Source of the DNA: Anaerolineae bacterium
GTDB lineage: Bacteria > Chloroflexota > Anaerolineae > Anaerolineales > Villigracilaceae
Direction of reading: 5' to 3'
Length of the DNA stretch: 63,796 nucleotides
Assembly (NCBI GenBank): GCA_003130845.1
Contig: QEXW01000041.1
Span: 1-63,796, forward strand
Shown: positions 8,297-63,014 of the stretch, piece by piece
Numbering within the stretch: position 1 is the first letter of the stretch
Layout of the letters: the number at the start of each line of letters is the position of its first letter
Made by a program: the position numbers and the translations under genes
The notes under the pieces: generated by a model
Told to the model about the DNA's origin: nothing
The model's input: the letters and a program-made list of their open reading frames with translations, nothing else
Database searches by the model: none

Positions 8297-8344
8297 ATTT
8301 CTATGCTTGTTTTCCCTGAATGCGTTTGCAACTCAGGAGCCAGT

Positions 8345-9196
8345 ATGACAACCTACCAGGTCGCGCCGGTGGATTGGCGGCAAGTCTTTCTGCGCGTTCG
8401 CTTTGAGAACGCTGAAACGGTGGCCCCGCTCATCCTGTGCATTTCACCCTGTCGCAGTGGTTCAACGGTCTTGTTGCGCGTTTTTGGGGCGAGCGGAATT
8501 CCTTCGTTTTATCAGCCCTGGAAAAATGTTTTGCGGTGGGCCATGCAGGGGGTAGAGTGGTTTTGGGATTTCCCAACCGGCTCCACACCGGTTTTCGTCA
8601 AAGAAACGATTGGTCCATACACCCTAACCGAAACCAAATTCAACCCATTTGAACTTGTACAGGCCATTCATTATCCGTTGCATAAATTGCGCTTGATGTT
8701 GGTTGCGCGTGACCCGTTGCAGACTTGGGTTTCTTGGCAGACCTTGTGGGGAGAAAAAACCCGCTTTGAAATTTTCTATGCAGCGTTTGAGCAAGTAGAA
8801 ACGATTCGACGGCAAATCCAATCGGCAGGGCTGCCGTTGGTGCATTTCGTCTATGAGGCCGTACGAGATTATGGTGCTGAATCTGCTATTCGTGGCCTGT
8901 TTGCTCAGTTGGGACTTCCCTTTACCCGGCAGGCCATCACCGGCTGGTTTAGCCTGCCACCCTTTGGTGAAGACGGTTCCAATATCTTTTACCCGCAAGA
9001 GCCGCCTGTCTTTTCGGTGCCAAACATTCACGAAAAAGTCGAAACTGCGGATAGCCTGGAGTTTTTTGCTCGCAGCGAACCTTTTGCAGGGGTACCTGTT
9101 GACCAAGTTGACCAGATTCGGCACAGTGAATTGCAAACTTGGTATGAAACCTGGCGTCGAACCCATTATGCTGTACTCGACGCACAAGGTGGCTAG
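8345..9196 (+). CDS. Sulfotransferase-like protein
   Basis: 283 residues. ATG 8345 is chosen because CAGGAG lies at 8334-8339 with normal spacing; an in-frame ATG at 8303 lacks one. Near residue 36 the sequence LCISPCRSGSTVLLRVF fits the PAPS-binding 5'-phosphosulfate loop of sulfotransferases (usual form PRSGTT/S). The lengths between later blocks (LMLVARDPLQTWVSWQTLWG, resembling the R-DP region of the 3'-phosphate loop) also fit. Substrate unknown. It ends at the base before the start of the SulP permease, so the two are almost certainly co-transcribed; sulfate import next to sulfate transfer supports the assignment. Confidence 0.65.
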   Translation: MTTYQVAPVDWRQVFLRVRFENAETVAPLILCISPCRSGSTVLLRVFGASGIPSFYQPWKNVLRWAMQGVEWFWDFPTGSTPVFVKETIGPYTLTETKFNPFELVQAIHYPLHKLRLMLVARDPLQTWVSWQTLWGEKTRFEIFYAAFEQVETIRRQIQSAGLPLVHFVYEAVRDYGAESAIRGLFAQLGLPFTRQAITGWFSLPPFGEDGSNIFYPQEPPVFSVPNIHEKVETADSLEFFARSEPFAGVPVDQVDQIRHSELQTWYETWRRTHYAVLDAQGG

Positions 9197-11383
9197 ATGA
9201 AACACTCCCTTTCTGAACTTCAATCGCCTGTGCTGTTACGGTCCATCTTGTTGGGATTGGTCGTTGGGCTGATTGCCCTGGTCAACACCATCACCTATGG
9301 TGTTCTCATCTACAAATCCACCGGAGATGCACTCAGCGGGGTCTTACTGGCGTTGATTAATGGTTTGATTCTTTCTCTGTTGTTTGGTTTATTTGGCTCG
9401 GTGCCGGGCATGGTTGCTTTTCCGCAATCGGCCATGACGCCTGTTTTGGCCGGCTTGGTGGTTAACATGACGCTTGCGCTGGCAGGAGCCTCTCAATCGG
9501 CTGTTACGGCAACGGTTACAGCAGCGGTCTTGTTGGCTTCGTTGATGGTGGGAATGGCGTATGTGCTGCTTGGCTACCGTCAGTTAGGGAACCTGATTCG
9601 CTTTTTGCCGTATCCTGTTTCGGCGGGCTTTTTGGCCGGGCTAGGCTGGGTTTTGTTCAAGAGTGGTTTTGAGATAGGCTTGGGCAAATTCACACTCATG
9701 ACCTTTTTCGACCCGAATTCGCTCACCGGTTGGTTGCCAGCGCTTTTGTTTGGCGTGGTTTTGTTTGGCATCCAGCAGAAGAGTTCTTCGGCTTGGCTGC
9801 CTCCTTTGGTGATTTTGATAGCGGTTGTGGGCTTTTATCTCTGGCAACTGCCTCGTGCTTCCATTGAGGAGTTGCGGCAGGCGGGTTGGTTATTGGTGAT
9901 TGCTTCCCCATCTAAAGTTCAAGCGCTCTTTCACTATCCATTGGTGACCTCTTGGCGAGAAATTCAGTGGGGGGTGATTTTTCAGAACGCTGGCATTTTT
10001 TTAACGGTGTTGTTTACCGCCCTCGTCAGCCTGTTGCTTAACATCAACGGGATTGAAATGGGGATTCGCAAAGATATTGACCCCAGCCGAGAAATGCGTT
10101 TGGCTGGGCTGGCGAATCTTATCACCCTGGCGGCAGGTGGTGGCATTGTGGGGTATCCTTCGGCCGGCTTGACGTTGCTTGCCAACCGTAATGGACCACC
10201 CCACCGGGTGTTTGGTTTTGTGGTGAGTGGTTTGTTTGTGGTGGTGCTTCTGTGGGGGACACATTATCTCTCCTACCTGCCTAATTTCGTCATCGCTGGC
10301 TTGCTCATTTCGCTTGGCTTAAACTTTTTGCAAGAATGGTTGTTGGAGGGCGCGTTTAAATTTTCCCTCACCGACTTTTTGGTCGTTCTGGTCATGTTTT
10401 TTACGGTTGTTTTTACCGATTTGTTGCGCGCGGTGGGGCTGGGCTTGGTTTTGATGGTGGCTTTGTTTGTGCTTAACTACAGCCGGACAAATGTTATCCG
10501 CAGCATATTGACCGGAAAAACCTATCAAAGTAATGTAGACCGACCGCTAAAGCATGCCCGCTATTTGCAAGAACAAGGCAGTCAATTATTAATTTTGCGT
10601 TTGCAAGGCTATATCTTTTTTGGCACGGCGCATTCCATCTATGAATGGGTGAAGGAACATCTGCCTTCTCAATACGCCGAAGCGCGCTACTTGGTGATTG
10701 ATTTCAGCCAGACTTACGGAATTGACTCTTCGGCTGCCAATGTGTTTATGAAGCTATTCCACTTCACCCAAGCGCGCCAAGTAAAGCTGGTCTTTGCGGC
10801 GTTACGGGAAGCGATGCAGCAACAATTCGTGCGTGGTGGGTTTAACCTGCGCACTGGCAGTTTTTATACTTTTGAAAGCCTAGATCGTGCGGTGGAATGG
10901 TGCGAAGCTGCCATTTTGTCTGTTTCTAACCTGACGATGATTACCTCCCGCAGCCTGGTGCATAATTTAGGCGCTTTTTTTACTCCTGCTGAGTTAAGTG
11001 CACTGGAAAAATATATGCAAATGCTTAACGTTCCTGAAAATCATCGGCTGATTGCCCAAGGCGAATCCCCGCCCGGTTTATATTTTATTGAGAGCGGACA
11101 AGTCACCGTGTACCGTGAAATAGGGGATGGTCGCCTGATTCGTTTGCGCACGATGGGTGCCGGCGCGAGCGTTGGTGAAATGAGCCTGTATCATGGCGGT
11201 CTGGCTTCGGCAACCGTTTTGACCGATTTTCCCTGCAGAATTTATTTATTTTCGCGTGAGCAGATGGCTGAGATGGAGAGCAAAGACCCACTTCTGGCTA
11301 TCAAATTTCATCGTTACATCATTGAGTTGCTTGTGCAACGCTTGCAAAATACTACTGCCAGTGTGCAGGCATTGATGGAATAG
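9197..11383 (+). CDS. SulP-family anion (sulfate) permease with STAS and cNMP-binding-like domains
   Basis: 728 residues. SulP proteins move sulfate or other anions such as bicarbonate. Residues ~1-430 hold the hydrophobic transporter core. Residues ~458-568 form the cytoplasmic STAS domain (with VIDFSQTYGIDSSAANVF). Residues ~588-720 form a cyclic-nucleotide-binding-type beta roll (GLYFIESGQVTVYRE, then VGEMSLYHGG). In the phosphate-binding cassette the usual Arg before S/A-A-T is replaced (LASATV), so binding of cAMP in the normal way is doubtful. ATG follows the upstream TAG directly, and the channel gene starts nine bases downstream. Confidence 0.88.
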   Translation: MKHSLSELQSPVLLRSILLGLVVGLIALVNTITYGVLIYKSTGDALSGVLLALINGLILSLLFGLFGSVPGMVAFPQSAMTPVLAGLVVNMTLALAGASQSAVTATVTAAVLLASLMVGMAYVLLGYRQLGNLIRFLPYPVSAGFLAGLGWVLFKSGFEIGLGKFTLMTFFDPNSLTGWLPALLFGVVLFGIQQKSSSAWLPPLVILIAVVGFYLWQLPRASIEELRQAGWLLVIASPSKVQALFHYPLVTSWREIQWGVIFQNAGIFLTVLFTALVSLLLNINGIEMGIRKDIDPSREMRLAGLANLITLAAGGGIVGYPSAGLTLLANRNGPPHRVFGFVVSGLFVVVLLWGTHYLSYLPNFVIAGLLISLGLNFLQEWLLEGAFKFSLTDFLVVLVMFFTVVFTDLLRAVGLGLVLMVALFVLNYSRTNVIRSILTGKTYQSNVDRPLKHARYLQEQGSQLLILRLQGYIFFGTAHSIYEWVKEHLPSQYAEARYLVIDFSQTYGIDSSAANVFMKLFHFTQARQVKLVFAALREAMQQQFVRGGFNLRTGSFYTFESLDRAVEWCEAAILSVSNLTMITSRSLVHNLGAFFTPAELSALEKYMQMLNVPENHRLIAQGESPPGLYFIESGQVTVYREIGDGRLIRLRTMGAGASVGEMSLYHGGLASATVLTDFPCRIYLFSREQMAEMESKDPLLAIKFHRYIIELLVQRLQNTTASVQALME

Positions 11384-11392
11384 GGGAACTGT

Positions 11393-13699
11393 ATGAGTAA
11401 AAAATTTTTTCTTCCGCTTGGTGTTTTAGGTGTTTTGGTGCTGATTGGCTTGCTGGTTTGGGTGGGGCAGCGTTCGGTTTTCTCGCAAAAGCAGACCATC
11501 CCACTGTACATTGCCGTGATGCTCGAACGCCAAAAAGTTGCTGGGTCCGAGGAGCCTTTTCCCGATAGTGTGGATGCGATGCGCGGTGTGGAACTGTGTG
11601 CGGCAGAAATCAATCAGATATGGCGTGATACGATGGCCTACCCCTGGGAATTGAAAATAGATTTCTATTATGATGAAAACCAAGTAGAAACCGGTTTAGA
11701 GCAGGCCAACAAAGTCGTCGAAACCAACCGTGCTCTCGTTGTTTTAGGACATGCGCAATCGCAAATTTCAAAACCAGCCGGGCAAATTTACGCCCAAAAC
11801 GGTATTCCGGCCATTACCGGCTCTTCGATTAACGATGATGTGGTGGTGGGCAATGAATGGTATTTCCGTGTTTTGCCCAATAGCTCGGCGCAAGCACACC
11901 AAATGGCACACTACATTTACCGCGTGCTTGGAAAGACCAAGGCCACCCTCATCGAGGGGAAAAATGATGCCTTCGCGCAGATGTTTGCGAGTGGCTTTCG
12001 GGAATATTTTACGGCGCTCGGCGGTGAAATTACAGCGACCTATGCCTTTACCCGCCCCCAGAGCAATGCCTTAACTGCAGAAATGCAGGAAATCGCGGAA
12101 CAAATCCGCCTTGAATCGAGCAGCGTAGATGACCCCGGCGTGCTGGTCTTTGCTACACGGGCAAACGAAGGCGCCCTGTTCCTAATTGGTTTGCGTGAGC
12201 GTGGTGTAAACCGCCTGACGTTTGGGCCTAGCCCGTTTGCCAACATTCTTTTTCTTTCCACCATCCAAACTGCGCCGCGCTTGCGTGAACCCAGCTTTTA
12301 CTCGAATGGCGTGTACGTGCTGGCGCCGGTTGTTTTTGATACCGCTGGCGAGCAAGGACAAAAGTTTTTTTCCAACTTTGTTGCACGTTACGGCACAGAA
12401 CCTGGTATGAAAGCCGCGACCAATTGCGATGCGCTTCTGGTAGTGGCAAAGGCTGTTCAGGATGCTCAAATCTCCGGTGCGCCAACCACCCTGGCAGAAG
12501 ACCGCCGTAAGGTGCGCGATGCACTCGCCAATATCAATGCACCTGAGCGAGCTGTAGATGGTGTCACCGGACGACTTTTCTTCGACCAAAACCGAGAAGT
12601 GGTTAAACCGATTGATACCAGCATCTATCAGAACAATCAGCGCATTTCTGCCATCAGCCAGATTGTGGAAATTGACGCAGAAACTGCGCTTCGTCTGGAG
12701 AAGCAGATACAAGAACGCAGCCCGGTTCTAAAATATGATAACCGCTTCTTCCGCGTGACGGATGTCGCCTATGTTGGGATAGACATCAACGAAGTCAGTG
12801 AACTCGATACGCAAAGTGGAACTTATCTCTTGGATTTCTATCTCTGGTTTCGCGCGCGCGAGCCATTAAGCCCCGATGATTTTGTCTTTTTGCAGTTGGC
12901 TGAACCGTTTGAATTGGGTGAGCCGGTGGTGGAAACCCTGGAAAATGGTATTTCCTATCGTGCCTATCATCTCAAAGCCAAACTAAAGGGCAATTTTGTC
13001 TATAACAACTATCCTTTTGACCAGCAACGCTTGGGGATTCAGTTAAAGCACAAGTTCAAAAACGCGCAGGAACTTTTGCTGGTGCCAGATACGATTGGCA
13101 TGCGCGATATTTCTAGCGCCGGCTTTCTCAAGCGGTTGCTTGCCCAAAACGTGGTGCGCTCATTGGGGGATTGGACTTTGGTTAACCAAGTCGGCAGCGC
13201 AGTCATTATTCAAGACCAGATTATCAATGACTCCACGCTTGGCAATCCCACCTTGGTCGAAAGCGGAGATACCCAAATCGCTTATACGCTTATCCGGGTA
13301 GAATTCCAAATTAAACGCAATGGCTGGACGTACATTTGGAAAAATCTGTTTCCACTTGGCTTTTTGGTTGGGTTAGCGTATTTGGCTTTTCTTTCCAAAG
13401 CCAGCGAATATGAAAAGATGTATGATGTGGTGACAAGCGTGATTTTAACAGCGGCCTTTTTTCAGCTTGGCTTGAATGAATCGCTACCCAACATTGGCTA
13501 CCCCACGGCGATGGATTGGATGTTTTATATTTTATATGCGCTGTGTGTCGCGCAAATCATCACGATTTTGGTGATACGCAAGTATGTCAACAGCGAACGC
13601 GAGGCGCAAGCCAATCGCATTATATGGAGCGCTCGCTATGCTTACCCTGTGCTGGTTTTGGTCAGTGGCTATGCCATTTATCTCTTGTTTTGGCAGTGA
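11393..13699 (+). CDS. Periplasmic binding protein fused to pentameric ligand-gated ion channel (Cys-loop/pro-loop family)
   Basis: 768 residues, start preceded by GGGGAA. Residues ~5-25 are a signal or anchor helix. Residues ~36-430 resemble the type-1 periplasmic binding fold of branched-chain amino acid receptors (GVELCAAEIN, VVLGHAQSQ, GIPAITGSS, YFRVLPNS). Residues ~446-645 match the extracellular domain of pentameric channels: VGIDINEV...LDTQSGTYLLDFYLWFR, then the pro-loop YNNYPFDQQ near 539. Four hydrophobic segments follow: M1 ~650-672 with its Pro, M2 ~680-700, the conserved LPNIGYPTAMDW linker into M3 ~707-729, and M4 ~745-766. It is therefore a full-length channel with an additional sensor domain. 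Ligand and ion selectivity are unknown; the SulP partner suggests an anion- or sulfur-related role, which is inference. Confidence 0.82.
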   Translation: MSKKFFLPLGVLGVLVLIGLLVWVGQRSVFSQKQTIPLYIAVMLERQKVAGSEEPFPDSVDAMRGVELCAAEINQIWRDTMAYPWELKIDFYYDENQVETGLEQANKVVETNRALVVLGHAQSQISKPAGQIYAQNGIPAITGSSINDDVVVGNEWYFRVLPNSSAQAHQMAHYIYRVLGKTKATLIEGKNDAFAQMFASGFREYFTALGGEITATYAFTRPQSNALTAEMQEIAEQIRLESSSVDDPGVLVFATRANEGALFLIGLRERGVNRLTFGPSPFANILFLSTIQTAPRLREPSFYSNGVYVLAPVVFDTAGEQGQKFFSNFVARYGTEPGMKAATNCDALLVVAKAVQDAQISGAPTTLAEDRRKVRDALANINAPERAVDGVTGRLFFDQNREVVKPIDTSIYQNNQRISAISQIVEIDAETALRLEKQIQERSPVLKYDNRFFRVTDVAYVGIDINEVSELDTQSGTYLLDFYLWFRAREPLSPDDFVFLQLAEPFELGEPVVETLENGISYRAYHLKAKLKGNFVYNNYPFDQQRLGIQLKHKFKNAQELLLVPDTIGMRDISSAGFLKRLLAQNVVRSLGDWTLVNQVGSAVIIQDQIINDSTLGNPTLVESGDTQIAYTLIRVEFQIKRNGWTYIWKNLFPLGFLVGLAYLAFLSKASEYEKMYDVVTSVILTAAFFQLGLNESLPNIGYPTAMDWMFYILYALCVAQIITILVIRKYVNSEREAQANRIIWSARYAYPVLVLVSGYAIYLLFWQ

Positions 13700-60469: not shown

Positions 60470-60612
60470 GGCAACCTTTTGACTTGTGCATTCCACTTCT
60501 AGAGCGTTTCAGCGTGGACGCAGTGGACAGGTGGTTTACGGAGGATGAAGTGGAAGATGTAGTGGCGTTTGTGAATGGAATGGCGTTTTCTAATGATCAG
60601 AAAGGTCAATGA
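60466..60612 (+). pseudogene. Remnant of a second hsdR 3' end, kept as a 48-codon ORF
   Basis: From ATG 60466 (overlapping the vapC stop) to TGA 60612. From codon 12 onward it matches the C-terminus of the HsdR encoded upstream: 22 of 29 residues identical over LERFSVDAVDRWFTEDEVEDVVAF..., then eight extra residues. The DNA match spans about 59754-59843 and 60499-60588. It overlaps the STAND gene start by ATGA. Probably a leftover of recombination that placed vapBC behind hsdR; whether the peptide is made is unknown. Confidence 0.75.
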
Positions 60613-61937
60613 TGAGTGTCATTTTAAGTTTCGGACTCGATATTCTGATTTTTTTGCTAAGCAAACTTCCTGATGCATTTATGGGCTGGGGAGTTGGCAA
60701 AGTTCTTGACAATTTGATTTCTACAAAGTTCTCGCGGAGCAAGAAGCAAAATGTAATGCTTTACTCTTTAGAATGTGGTGATGCAGGCATTAACCTTGAA
60801 CAACAGAGACTGTTGGTTTCTACTGCATTCGGAAATTATTTCACAGGTTTACTTGAAAAAGAAAATCTATATCTTGATTTAGAATCACAAATTGACTGCC
60901 CACCCGTCAAGGGACAAGAGGGGCTAAAGCCTTTACAAAGATTATATTGGCTCTTGAGCTATCCAAAAAGTCCAAGGATTTTTGTTTTTGCAGGTGATGG
61001 CGGAATGGGAAAGAGCACATTGTCTGCGAAAATCGTGCGCTGCCTATTTCAAGAGGGGGCGATAGATACGATTTTAGGTGATAGCGCAAAAACGCAACAC
61101 ATAGATCCAATTAGTGGCGAAGTTGTCAAATTCCAACCAGGCTATTATGACGTCAATTCGTTTTATAAAAGGTTGTGTCACCAACTTGGATTACCACCGT
61201 TGTCCAAAAAACAAGCAATTATTGCTATAAAAGATCGCTTGGTAGGGCAAAAGGCAATTATTGTTGTTGACAATCTGGAAGCAATTGAAAAAGGAAATGA
61301 ACTCCTTGACTCTTTACGCATCCTGACATCTAGGGATATTCGGGCTATTGTTACTACGCGTGAAACGAAAAAACTTCGCCCACTTTTAACCGATCTGGTC
61401 ATTGTTCAATTGAAACCAATCACATCTCCAAAAGATGCTAAACAGTTTGTAGAGTGGCATATTGAGCAGTATAAGGTACAAAACCCGACTTTGGCATCAC
61501 TTAAAACTCAATTAAGCCAGAATAACTTAAAGTGGCTAATTGAAAAAACGGGCGGCATCCCATTGCTCTTGCAATTAATTTCCACAGATGTGGCTAGAAC
61601 TTCTTGGGAGCACGCAAAAGGATTACCTAATATATTTGGGAAAGAATTGCTAGAATTCCTATATCGGGCGAGGTGGGACGATTTGGGAAATCAGGGCGTT
61701 TCGGGCGATTCTGCCAAAAGAGTTTTGAAATGGATAACAGCAGAGCAGTATCGCGGGAAAGGCATTACCACAAAGAGAATCAAAAATTGGGCGGAGGATA
61801 ATTCTTTATCTGATACGCTTGACTCTGCCCTCTTGTTATTGCATGAGCGATTTATGGTTGTAAATAGAGATGTGAAGAAAGGAGATTATTCCATTTTCCC
61901 TAGTTTGGCTGAGTTCATTGAAAGACAGAGTGTTTAG
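60609..61937 (+). CDS. STAND/NB-ARC-type NTPase, probably the 5' part of a disrupted gene
   Basis: 442 residues; ATG 60609 or 60612. An N-terminal helix (~7-30) may be membrane-associated. NTPase motifs: Walker A GDGGMGKST (~134), Walker B AIIVVDNLEA (~218), sensor-type RAIVTTRE (~241) and GGIPLLLQLI (~317), followed by winged-helix-like sequence to ~440. This is the NLR-like architecture of STAND signalling ATPases, several of which are anti-phage sensors. The gene is clearly A+T-richer than hsdR, a sign of separate origin. It stops just before sequence that continues in another frame and then the TPR gene. Confidence 0.78.
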   Translation: MMSVILSFGLDILIFLLSKLPDAFMGWGVGKVLDNLISTKFSRSKKQNVMLYSLECGDAGINLEQQRLLVSTAFGNYFTGLLEKENLYLDLESQIDCPPVKGQEGLKPLQRLYWLLSYPKSPRIFVFAGDGGMGKSTLSAKIVRCLFQEGAIDTILGDSAKTQHIDPISGEVVKFQPGYYDVNSFYKRLCHQLGLPPLSKKQAIIAIKDRLVGQKAIIVVDNLEAIEKGNELLDSLRILTSRDIRAIVTTRETKKLRPLLTDLVIVQLKPITSPKDAKQFVEWHIEQYKVQNPTLASLKTQLSQNNLKWLIEKTGGIPLLLQLISTDVARTSWEHAKGLPNIFGKELLEFLYRARWDDLGNQGVSGDSAKRVLKWITAEQYRGKGITTKRIKNWAEDNSLSDTLDSALLLLHERFMVVNRDVKKGDYSIFPSLAEFIERQSV

Positions 61938-62026
61938 ACTGCTATGCCAACCGTAAATTGGAATACGCTCGAATAATTTTCTATCAGGCTTTCTCAACCT
62001 GGTTTGCAATTGGGAACCATTCCTGA
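61938..62026 (+). pseudogene. Out-of-frame linker between the STAND and TPR parts
   Basis: In frame 2 (codons from 61940) the DNA reads CYANRKLEYARIIFYQAFS and so on to a stop at 62024, good helical-repeat-like protein sequence with no start codon. The STAND frame has stops at 61935 and 61974. A -1 change near 61930 and a +1 change near 62015-62024 would join STAND, linker and TPR into one protein of about 800 residues. Confidence 0.6.
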
Positions 62027-63014
62027 TGATGAGTGGAAGCTTATTGAGAAGGCTTTGATTTCATTTACCGAAAATAACGATTGGCAATCAATTGTCAGAC
62101 TTCGAGATTTATTCAACGATCTTTTTGCTAGAGATACACTCGGAGGATATGATTTATTACAACAACTTGATCTAAGCGCCATTCAAGCCGCTCGGCAACT
62201 TGGCGACAAGGCAGAATTGGCTCATCTTTTAGGAGCGCGTGGGCATAACCTTCATCGGCAGGGATATCACAGAGATGCCATAAAAGCCTTTGACGAGTCT
62301 GCTAAACTGTATTGGGAAATAGGAAAAGATTTTCCTGCAATGAAAAGTTACTACATGACATCGCTTTGCTATCGAGCCTTAGGTGATAGAAATCAGGCAA
62401 AGAAGATTTTGAACGATGTCATTCAGAAAATAGATCCTAGCGATGGCTGGTTTGGACAACCTACACAAGTGCTTGCTTGGCTTGCTAGAGATGAAGGCAG
62501 ATTAGGAGAAGCAGAAGAATTACTTTGGAAATCCTTGGAACTGCACAAGCTTTTAAGCGACCCTGATATGCTTATTGCAGGGACACTGGCAGATTTAGGC
62601 GAAATCATAAGCATTCAGGGGCGAGTTGGCGAGGCAAAAAAACTCTTTGAAGAAAGCCTGGCGATTATTCGCAAACACGAAGGTCAATATGACAGGCAAG
62701 AGGCAAGAACTTTGTTGAAGTATTCCGAGACCTTAATGCATGAGAAGGATTTTTCTGGTGCAATAAAGCTCCTAAATCAAGCAGATGCAAAAGCCAGCAG
62801 GTACGGTCATTACTATGATTTGCTGTGGCAGATAGAATTAGCCAAGGCTTTCATTTACTTACGGCAAAGGGATTTAATTAATTGCTTCTACAAACTTAGA
62901 TCAGTTTTTCGAATTCGAAAATATCTTGATTTACCCGCATCGTATTTTATGGTATTTGTGCTCAGGCGTTATTTTCATAGACTGGTCAACAAAATTACAA
63001 AATCAACGGATTGA
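62004..63014 (+). CDS. TPR-repeat protein, probably the 3' part of the STAND gene
   Basis: Up to 336 residues. There is no ATG or ribosome-binding site at the beginning; the longest version needs TTG 62004. The body is a tetratricopeptide array: DKAELAHLLGARGHNLHRQGYHRDAIKAFDESAKLYWEIG and further ~40-residue units with A-GD and G-EA spacing to residue ~290. TPRs are the usual C-terminal sensor of STAND NTPases. Same A+T-rich composition as the STAND gene. Confidence 0.7.
   Translation: MQLGTIPDDEWKLIEKALISFTENNDWQSIVRLRDLFNDLFARDTLGGYDLLQQLDLSAIQAARQLGDKAELAHLLGARGHNLHRQGYHRDAIKAFDESAKLYWEIGKDFPAMKSYYMTSLCYRALGDRNQAKKILNDVIQKIDPSDGWFGQPTQVLAWLARDEGRLGEAEELLWKSLELHKLLSDPDMLIAGTLADLGEIISIQGRVGEAKKLFEESLAIIRKHEGQYDRQEARTLLKYSETLMHEKDFSGAIKLLNQADAKASRYGHYYDLLWQIELAKAFIYLRQRDLINCFYKLRSVFRIRKYLDLPASYFMVFVLRRYFHRLVNKITKSTD

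Follow-up and report, generated by a model that had tools for sequence, protein, structure and literature searches.

A periplasmic binding protein joined to a pentameric ligand-gated ion channel beside a SulP transporter gene in an Anaerolineae genome

This locus raises the question of whether a single gene of an Anaerolineae bacterium joins a periplasmic binding protein to a complete pentameric ligand-gated ion channel (pLGIC), and what such a protein may do next to a transporter gene. Within the window (the whole stretch of DNA analysed, 63,796 nucleotides of contig QEXW01000041.1), positions 11393-13699 of the forward strand form a single intact gene, which starts with ATG, has no internal stop and encodes 768 amino acids. 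We confirmed that its product contains a type-1 periplasmic binding protein (PBP-I) domain, a pLGIC extracellular domain and the membrane helices M1-M4 in one chain, which presumably assembles as a pentamer.

The protein opens with a signal peptide or signal anchor (11393-11488, residues 1-32, hydropathy 2.69), followed by the PBP-I clamshell (11495-12682, residues ~35-430). The Pfam core of the clamshell, residues 92-402, matches Peripla_BP_6 at 6.6e-26, above the curated cut-off, which bears out the type-1 binding-protein domain named in a preliminary description of this DNA; ANF_receptor overlaps the same stretch (7.3e-10), and the closest solved binding protein by sequence is PDB 4mlc (1.6e-11). 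The pLGIC extracellular beta-sandwich (12725-13318, residues ~445-642) includes the Pro-loop YNNYPFDQQ (13001-13027, residues 537-545), and it is followed by M1 (13322-13390), the pore helix M2 (13400-13483), the M2-M3 linker LPNIGYPTAMDW (13484-13519, residues 698-709, assigned by sequence and homology), M3 (13508-13591, from model and hydropathy) and M4 (13601-13693), which closes the protein and is placed by the model. Both the Pro-loop and the linker were found as that description had given them. These gating parts are conserved: P541 and D543 of the Pro-loop occur in 8/8 aligned pLGIC-type members and the M1 proline (P654) in 6/6, and the M2-M3 linker is retained as well.

The channel half is recognised through family profiles and models, its single-sequence scores lying below the curated Pfam and NCBIfam cut-offs for pLGICs. 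Neur_chan_memb covers residues 657-733 at 23.9 bits, under the 28.1-bit cut-off, so that Pfam by itself upholds the binding-protein half of the earlier claim and falls short on the channel half; NCBIfam gives 31.2 versus 280.2 bits for LIC and 36.8 versus 500 bits for LGIC_1. Two orthologues, L003 and L004, straddle the Neur_chan_memb cut-off with 19.1 and 28.7 bits, respectively. Profile A2, built from six PBP-type sequences (the window protein, L003, L004, L006, L007 and L008), matches the chimeric alpha1 GABA-A receptor 6cdu (E 3.8e-21, profile positions 24-325) and the GLIC-GABA-A chimera 5osa (E 1.7e-23), and its matches to solved pLGICs span the extracellular and membrane parts together. 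The extracellular part alone (profile A4) retrieves GLIC chains at 3.3e-7 to ~1e-6.

A single-chain AlphaFold2 model of residues 443-768, computed from three alignment rows, has strands and then four helices in a GLIC-like arrangement, at low confidence (mean pLDDT 60.2, pTM 0.49). Foldseek ranks GLIC first for this model (E 6.0e-15, TM 0.65, rmsd 8.2), and VIA-align 2 superposes it on GLIC 6zgd with Z 18.0 and rmsd 3.7 over 266 residues, tied with GluCl and GABA-A chains; the full-length 768-residue model is poor (pLDDT 50.5). By hydropathy only residues 1-32, M1 and M3 pass in the window protein, M4 falling below the threshold there and passing in L003 and L004, and M2 passes in none of the three, so the four helices are assigned from models and homology, hydropathy alone being insufficient. 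The protein thus carries the traits of the pLGIC superfamily, namely a homologous beta-sandwich, the proline and aspartate of the Pro-loop, and four helices with the M1 proline and the linker, and the extracellular domain and four membrane segments proposed from the letters alone hold on profile homology and models. With E values up to 1 allowed, the window protein matches three Pfam families, none of which is a glutamate-receptor channel or a PBP-II domain, in agreement with the earlier view of a receptor comparable to, and separate from, glutamate receptors.

An assembly or frame artefact was rejected, the gene being one open reading frame with full-length orthologues under purifying selection. 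L003 (79% identity) and L004 (56-57%), in records from Anaerolineales and Anaerolineae, are continuous across both domain junctions and dN/dS is below 0.1, so misassembly does not account for the fusion. Relative to L003, dN and dS are 0.122 and 1.97 in the PBP part, 0.119 and 1.52 in the extracellular part, and 0.103 and 3.65 in the membrane part, so that all three ratios are below 0.1 and rough, since dS is near saturation; relative to L004, dS is saturated. The codon comparison indicates that these three parts are under purifying selection, and of the four parts compared the signal segment alone drifts (dN 0.73, dS 0.93, 33 codons).

The design itself is already known, so the window gene is not of an unknown kind. 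Fusions of PBP-I with pLGIC were first reported in 2004-2005 in alphaproteobacteria, with Magnetospirillum magnetotacticum and Bradyrhizobium japonicum as carriers, in the part consulted of Tasneem et al. (PMC549065), and the window protein has the architecture described there: PBP-I N-terminal to the ligand-binding domain and four transmembrane segments of one protein. What is new here, and informative, is the genomic context of the gene.

The channel gene is the last of a cluster of three on the forward strand. The first gene (8303-9196, 297 aa) encodes a P-loop protein that we call sulfotransferase-like by eye from its PCRSGST motif; it has no Pfam, NCBIfam or PDB match, and a 5-row profile likewise found none in the PDB. 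The second (9197-11383, 728 aa) encodes a SulP-STAS-cNMP_binding transporter (Sulfate_transp 2.3e-17, STAS 2.5e-14, cNMP_binding 5.5e-16). The first two genes are separated by 0 bases, and 9 bases lie between the SulP and channel genes. L003 and L004 have the same gene order, with 55% and 57% identity of the first and second proteins in L004, and the three genes are linked across three species of one genus. The flanks, judged by eye in the orthologues, are shared by the window and L003, with a gene for an RNA methyltransferase upstream and one for an alpha/beta hydrolase downstream; L004 has integrase- and phage-like reading frames upstream, and small heat-shock-like and Lon-like genes downstream.

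Within this genus, any pLGIC match is found in 5/11 genomes and the PBP-type channel in three (G000, G758 and G761), the profile counts here, in the 18-genome genus described below and in the phylum favouring the PBP type, since A2 was built solely from such members. G758 and G761 appear to be L003 and L004 and are not additional to these counts; among the eight genomes in which the PBP-type channel was not found, two are only 62-63% complete. A SulP of at least 58% identity occurs in the same three genomes and one of 32-36% in two further genomes, and the first cluster gene occurs in these three and in G756, where it sits at a contig end, so that the neighbours on that side are not visible. 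Among 396 genomes of the class, SulP is detected at E 1e-30 in 46, with a best non-self identity of 38%, and the first cluster gene in three, own included. Three other copies of the latter (L042, L043 and L044) have no adjoining SulP or channel gene within 3.0-3.8 kb, and the one in L042 (G281:C185) adjoins, by eye, thioesterase-like genes of a biosynthetic cluster.

Elsewhere in the window, no Rfam family reaches its gathering score. Promoter-like sites number 2 against 5.4 expected and terminator-like sites 12 against 7.8 (sd 3.6), and the scan was therefore not used. Positions 60609-63014 encode an AAA/NACHT-like ATPase and, after it, a TPR protein; the pair begins where the listed profile has its most AT-rich 2 kb (GC 0.434) and may be an island of defence genes or of acquired DNA.

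What might the channel pass, and what might it sense? Counting back without gaps from the linker proline at 23', M2 has E at -2', K at -1', D (D678) at 2', S at 6', L at 9', F at 13', L at 16' and E at 20'. Acids occupy -2' in two of the three orthologous proteins (L004 has G), 2' in all three (always D) and 20' in all three. Five other aligned members carry R at 0', where the window protein, L003 and L004 have M with K at -1'. This trio may therefore contain one extra residue, which would shift the aspartate to 3'; the HMMER pairwise alignment to a GABA-A subunit opens a gap near the same site. In either register acids would stand at the inner mouth, which fits cation passage. In the clamshell, the position aligned to the Thr of amino-acid binders is I146 (I in L003, V in L004) and that aligned to the Asp of 4gnr is S280 (S in both); elsewhere, both T and D are kept in L006, L015 and L017, T is combined with S in L008 and L010, and neither occurs in L007, L009 and L011. 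In amino-acid binders these two positions presumably contact the amino acid, and the substitutions hint, weakly, at a solute that is probably something other than a classical alpha-amino acid.

We suppose, with even confidence for and against, that the window protein is a subunit of a solute-gated cation channel whose influx or depolarisation acts on the SulP transporter. Five subunits would form a pLGIC pore bearing five PBP-I clamshells on its outer face. Binding of a small solute would close the clamshell, the linker at residues ~430-445 would relay this closure to the beta-strand with which the extracellular domain begins, and the Pro-loop would push on the M2-M3 linker so that M2 opens to cations. 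The influx or depolarisation would then act on the SulP-STAS-cNMP transporter encoded directly upstream, and transport would track the presence of the solute. We infer the pentamer, the cation selectivity, the clamshell gating and the coupling to SulP; sensing of the solute by the clamshell with consequent gating of the pore is plausible. Against this reading count the confinement of the cluster to one genus, in which 8/11 genomes gave no PBP-type channel, the one-residue ambiguity of M2, the G at -2' in L004 and the copies of the first cluster gene that adjoin neither SulP nor a channel. The 12 Guanylate_cyc matches in the genome, two of them in one frame, make cyclic-nucleotide signalling to the cNMP domain of SulP possible, and this domain may also bind something other than a cyclic nucleotide.

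The best surviving alternative is that the PBP domain merely modulates the speed or assembly of a channel whose trigger (Ca2+, pH or an interface ligand) acts on the beta-sandwich. Such an added N-terminal domain may be only modulatory, as that of DeCLIC appears to be in the parts consulted of PMC9897478 and PMC12664993, a precedent that counts against solute gating, and members of the family have a conserved extracellular core. However, relative to L003 the PBP domain and the extracellular part are equally well conserved (dN 0.122 versus 0.119), and the region aligned to loop B, KHKFK by eye, has one aromatic residue, F555. The family profile also lacks a stretch of ~20 residues present in GLIC behind strand 2; this shortness is not fusion-specific, because a paralogue without PBP in the same genome (L002) looks short there too by eye. 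We consider this alternative unlikely.

Decidedly improbable, in our judgement, is an orphan solute-gated channel for which adjacency to SulP reflects shared regulation only, without coupling. It would agree with the other PBP-pLGIC genes (L006, L007, L008, L015, L017 and G743), which have no adjoining SulP gene by eye, few of their neighbours having been scanned with Pfam; against it, the three cluster genes are kept together in L004 though the flanks, by eye, differ. Very improbable is a third explanation, by which the clamshell would hand its solute to SulP, much as ABC substrate-binding proteins serve their transporters, and the channel part would conduct no ions and act as an anchor. The tight clustering with SulP speaks for it, but Leu 9', the M1 proline and the Pro-loop are retained, and a mere anchor should not need them; SulP proteins are not known to work with a binding protein. 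Free ABC substrate-binding proteins are soluble and encoded together with an ABC permease and ATPase; the window protein differs from them in its channel fusion and in its sulfotransferase-like and SulP partners. Finally, a chemotaxis receptor, in which channel opening by the solute would direct swimming through the flow of ions, was proposed for bacterial pLGICs with such domains in the part consulted of Tasneem et al. (PMC549065), but the role fits this organism poorly and is hardly credible here, since MCPsignal (E up to 0.001) and Flagellin_N gave no match in its genome (estimated completeness 100), whereas the same searches gave matches in 7/14 and 4/14 control genomes, respectively.

The wider family shows other architectures. 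The full protein matches at E 1e-20 in four of the 396 class genomes, own included, a set which, like the 400 genomes of the phylum, is a draw from a larger group; the other three are L006, L007 and L008. L006 (861 aa) has weak N-terminal TPR matches below the cut-off, and a DUF4337 protein (L068:6524-7159) is encoded 5 bases downstream of its gene. L007 and L008 are longer (1219 and 1304 aa as listed reading frames) and carry SBP_bac_1 after M4 (1.8e-31 and 3.3e-34), giving PBP-I, pLGIC and PBP-II in one chain by Pfam (L007:1309-4908; L008:133-3780). A third copy, assigned by its 58-59% identity over its length, lies in G743:C117 (L067:4574-8188); in the genus of this long form, 4/18 genomes have a channel match and 3/18 the threefold chain. 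A small protein encoded after the L007 gene (L065:9447-10055) looks membrane-bound by eye and has no Pfam match. The C terminus of a pLGIC lies on the extracellular side, and so both clamshells would face outward. These three proteins combine a Cys-loop-type pore with the two kinds of clamshell that glutamate receptors have.

In the phylum, a channel match occurs in 11/400 genomes, including L015 and L017 with PBP-I. L002 (922-1929, contig 55 of the own genome) encodes a 335-aa pLGIC-like protein without PBP, which matches A2 at 7.6e-19 and no Pfam family at E up to 1. In L016 (3-1280 on the reverse and 508-2469 on the forward strand), an IS110-type transposase gene severs the 5' (PBP) part of a pLGIC gene, and this insertion is why L016 was excluded from the family alignment. 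L018, L024 and L028 (G459:C16:49357-50171) show a pLGIC match over three frames, a decayed gene or an assembly error. No relative was confirmed in viral contigs.

A different pore is found on plasmids of Azospirillum, where the tblastn match runs from the PBP into the extracellular domain and ends at residue 582 (566 in one). A pLGIC-type extracellular domain is present in 9 plasmid records and is homologous to that of the window protein (profile comparison probability 99.7, E 7.3e-27). Downstream of it, MS_channel_2nd is found in four genes (L009:5701-8784, L010:5791-9162, L011:5716-8799 and L061:3723-6791), accompanied by cNMP_binding in L010; no homology of the MscS-type membrane helices to M1-M4 of pLGICs was found (hhalign probability 0.3). 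The position of the Pro-loop aspartate is G in three aligned MscS-type members. In L061 the next genes after it are those of type I secretion, and a VCBS protein is encoded on the opposite side. The two annotated relatives of this type (L010 and L061) bear the plain name ABC transporter substrate-binding protein, so receptors of this kind are easy to overlook. On a Streptomyces plasmid, a 378-aa hypothetical protein (L060:2246-3382) weakly matches the extracellular domain (29%, 3e-4) and has no Pfam match. The pore of MscS is seven-fold, which makes the MscS version a puzzle: a five-fold gating domain serving a seven-fold pore.

Tentatively, and as a possibility more than an expectation, we suggest that PBP-I with the pLGIC-type extracellular domain may be a movable sensing cassette set on unrelated pores (pLGIC, pLGIC with PBP-II, and MscS with or without cNMP), and that in the genus of the window it may form a sensing-transport unit with SulP-STAS-cNMP, signalling for transport instead of taxis. 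Jaiteh et al. (PMC4795631) deliberately removed the terminal domains and, in the part consulted, called for a study of architecture; the corresponding parts of PMC12664993 describe N-terminal domains of this sort as little known, and those of PMC9897478 (2022) name DeCLIC as then the sole member with an added N-terminal domain of known structure. Among the 60 of 184 matching PDB chains listed, the binding-protein and channel matches fall in separate chains. The open-access literature returned nothing on MscS with a periplasmic binding protein, on the two Pfam names together or on pLGICs with Chloroflexi, and among the matches listed for pLGIC with SulP none concerned such a cluster by title; we thus met no printed account there of the SulP cluster or the MscS version, nor, in searches directed at these other subjects, of the PBP-II version.

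Compared with known systems, the window protein is closest in plan to the fusions of Magnetospirillum and Bradyrhizobium, which have the same order of PBP-I, pLGIC extracellular domain and four membrane helices as given in the part consulted of PMC549065; compared by description only, it differs in its phylum, in its SulP-STAS-cNMP cluster and in a host with no MCP or flagellin match. GLIC, the proton-gated channel of Gloeobacter (PDB 3eam, 6zgd), shares the Pro-loop beta-sandwich and four-helix pore and came first in both fold comparisons, but it has no PBP domain and has ~20 extra residues after strand 2. DeCLIC, also prokaryotic, likewise carries a large N-terminal domain on the outside of a pLGIC, but this domain is built of two jelly-roll lobes and not of a PBP clamshell (PMC9897478, PMC12664993, in the parts consulted). 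Ionotropic glutamate receptors are likewise ligand-gated channels whose amino-terminal domain is LIVBP-like, but their pore is another one, potassium-channel-like and interrupting a PBP-II ligand domain, and the window protein is without PBP-II. The binding proteins of the branched-chain amino-acid type (4mlc, 4gnr and 3ipc) belong with its clamshell to the PBP-I family (E down to 1.6e-11), whereas the window protein is fused to a channel and has I146 and S280 at the Thr and Asp positions.
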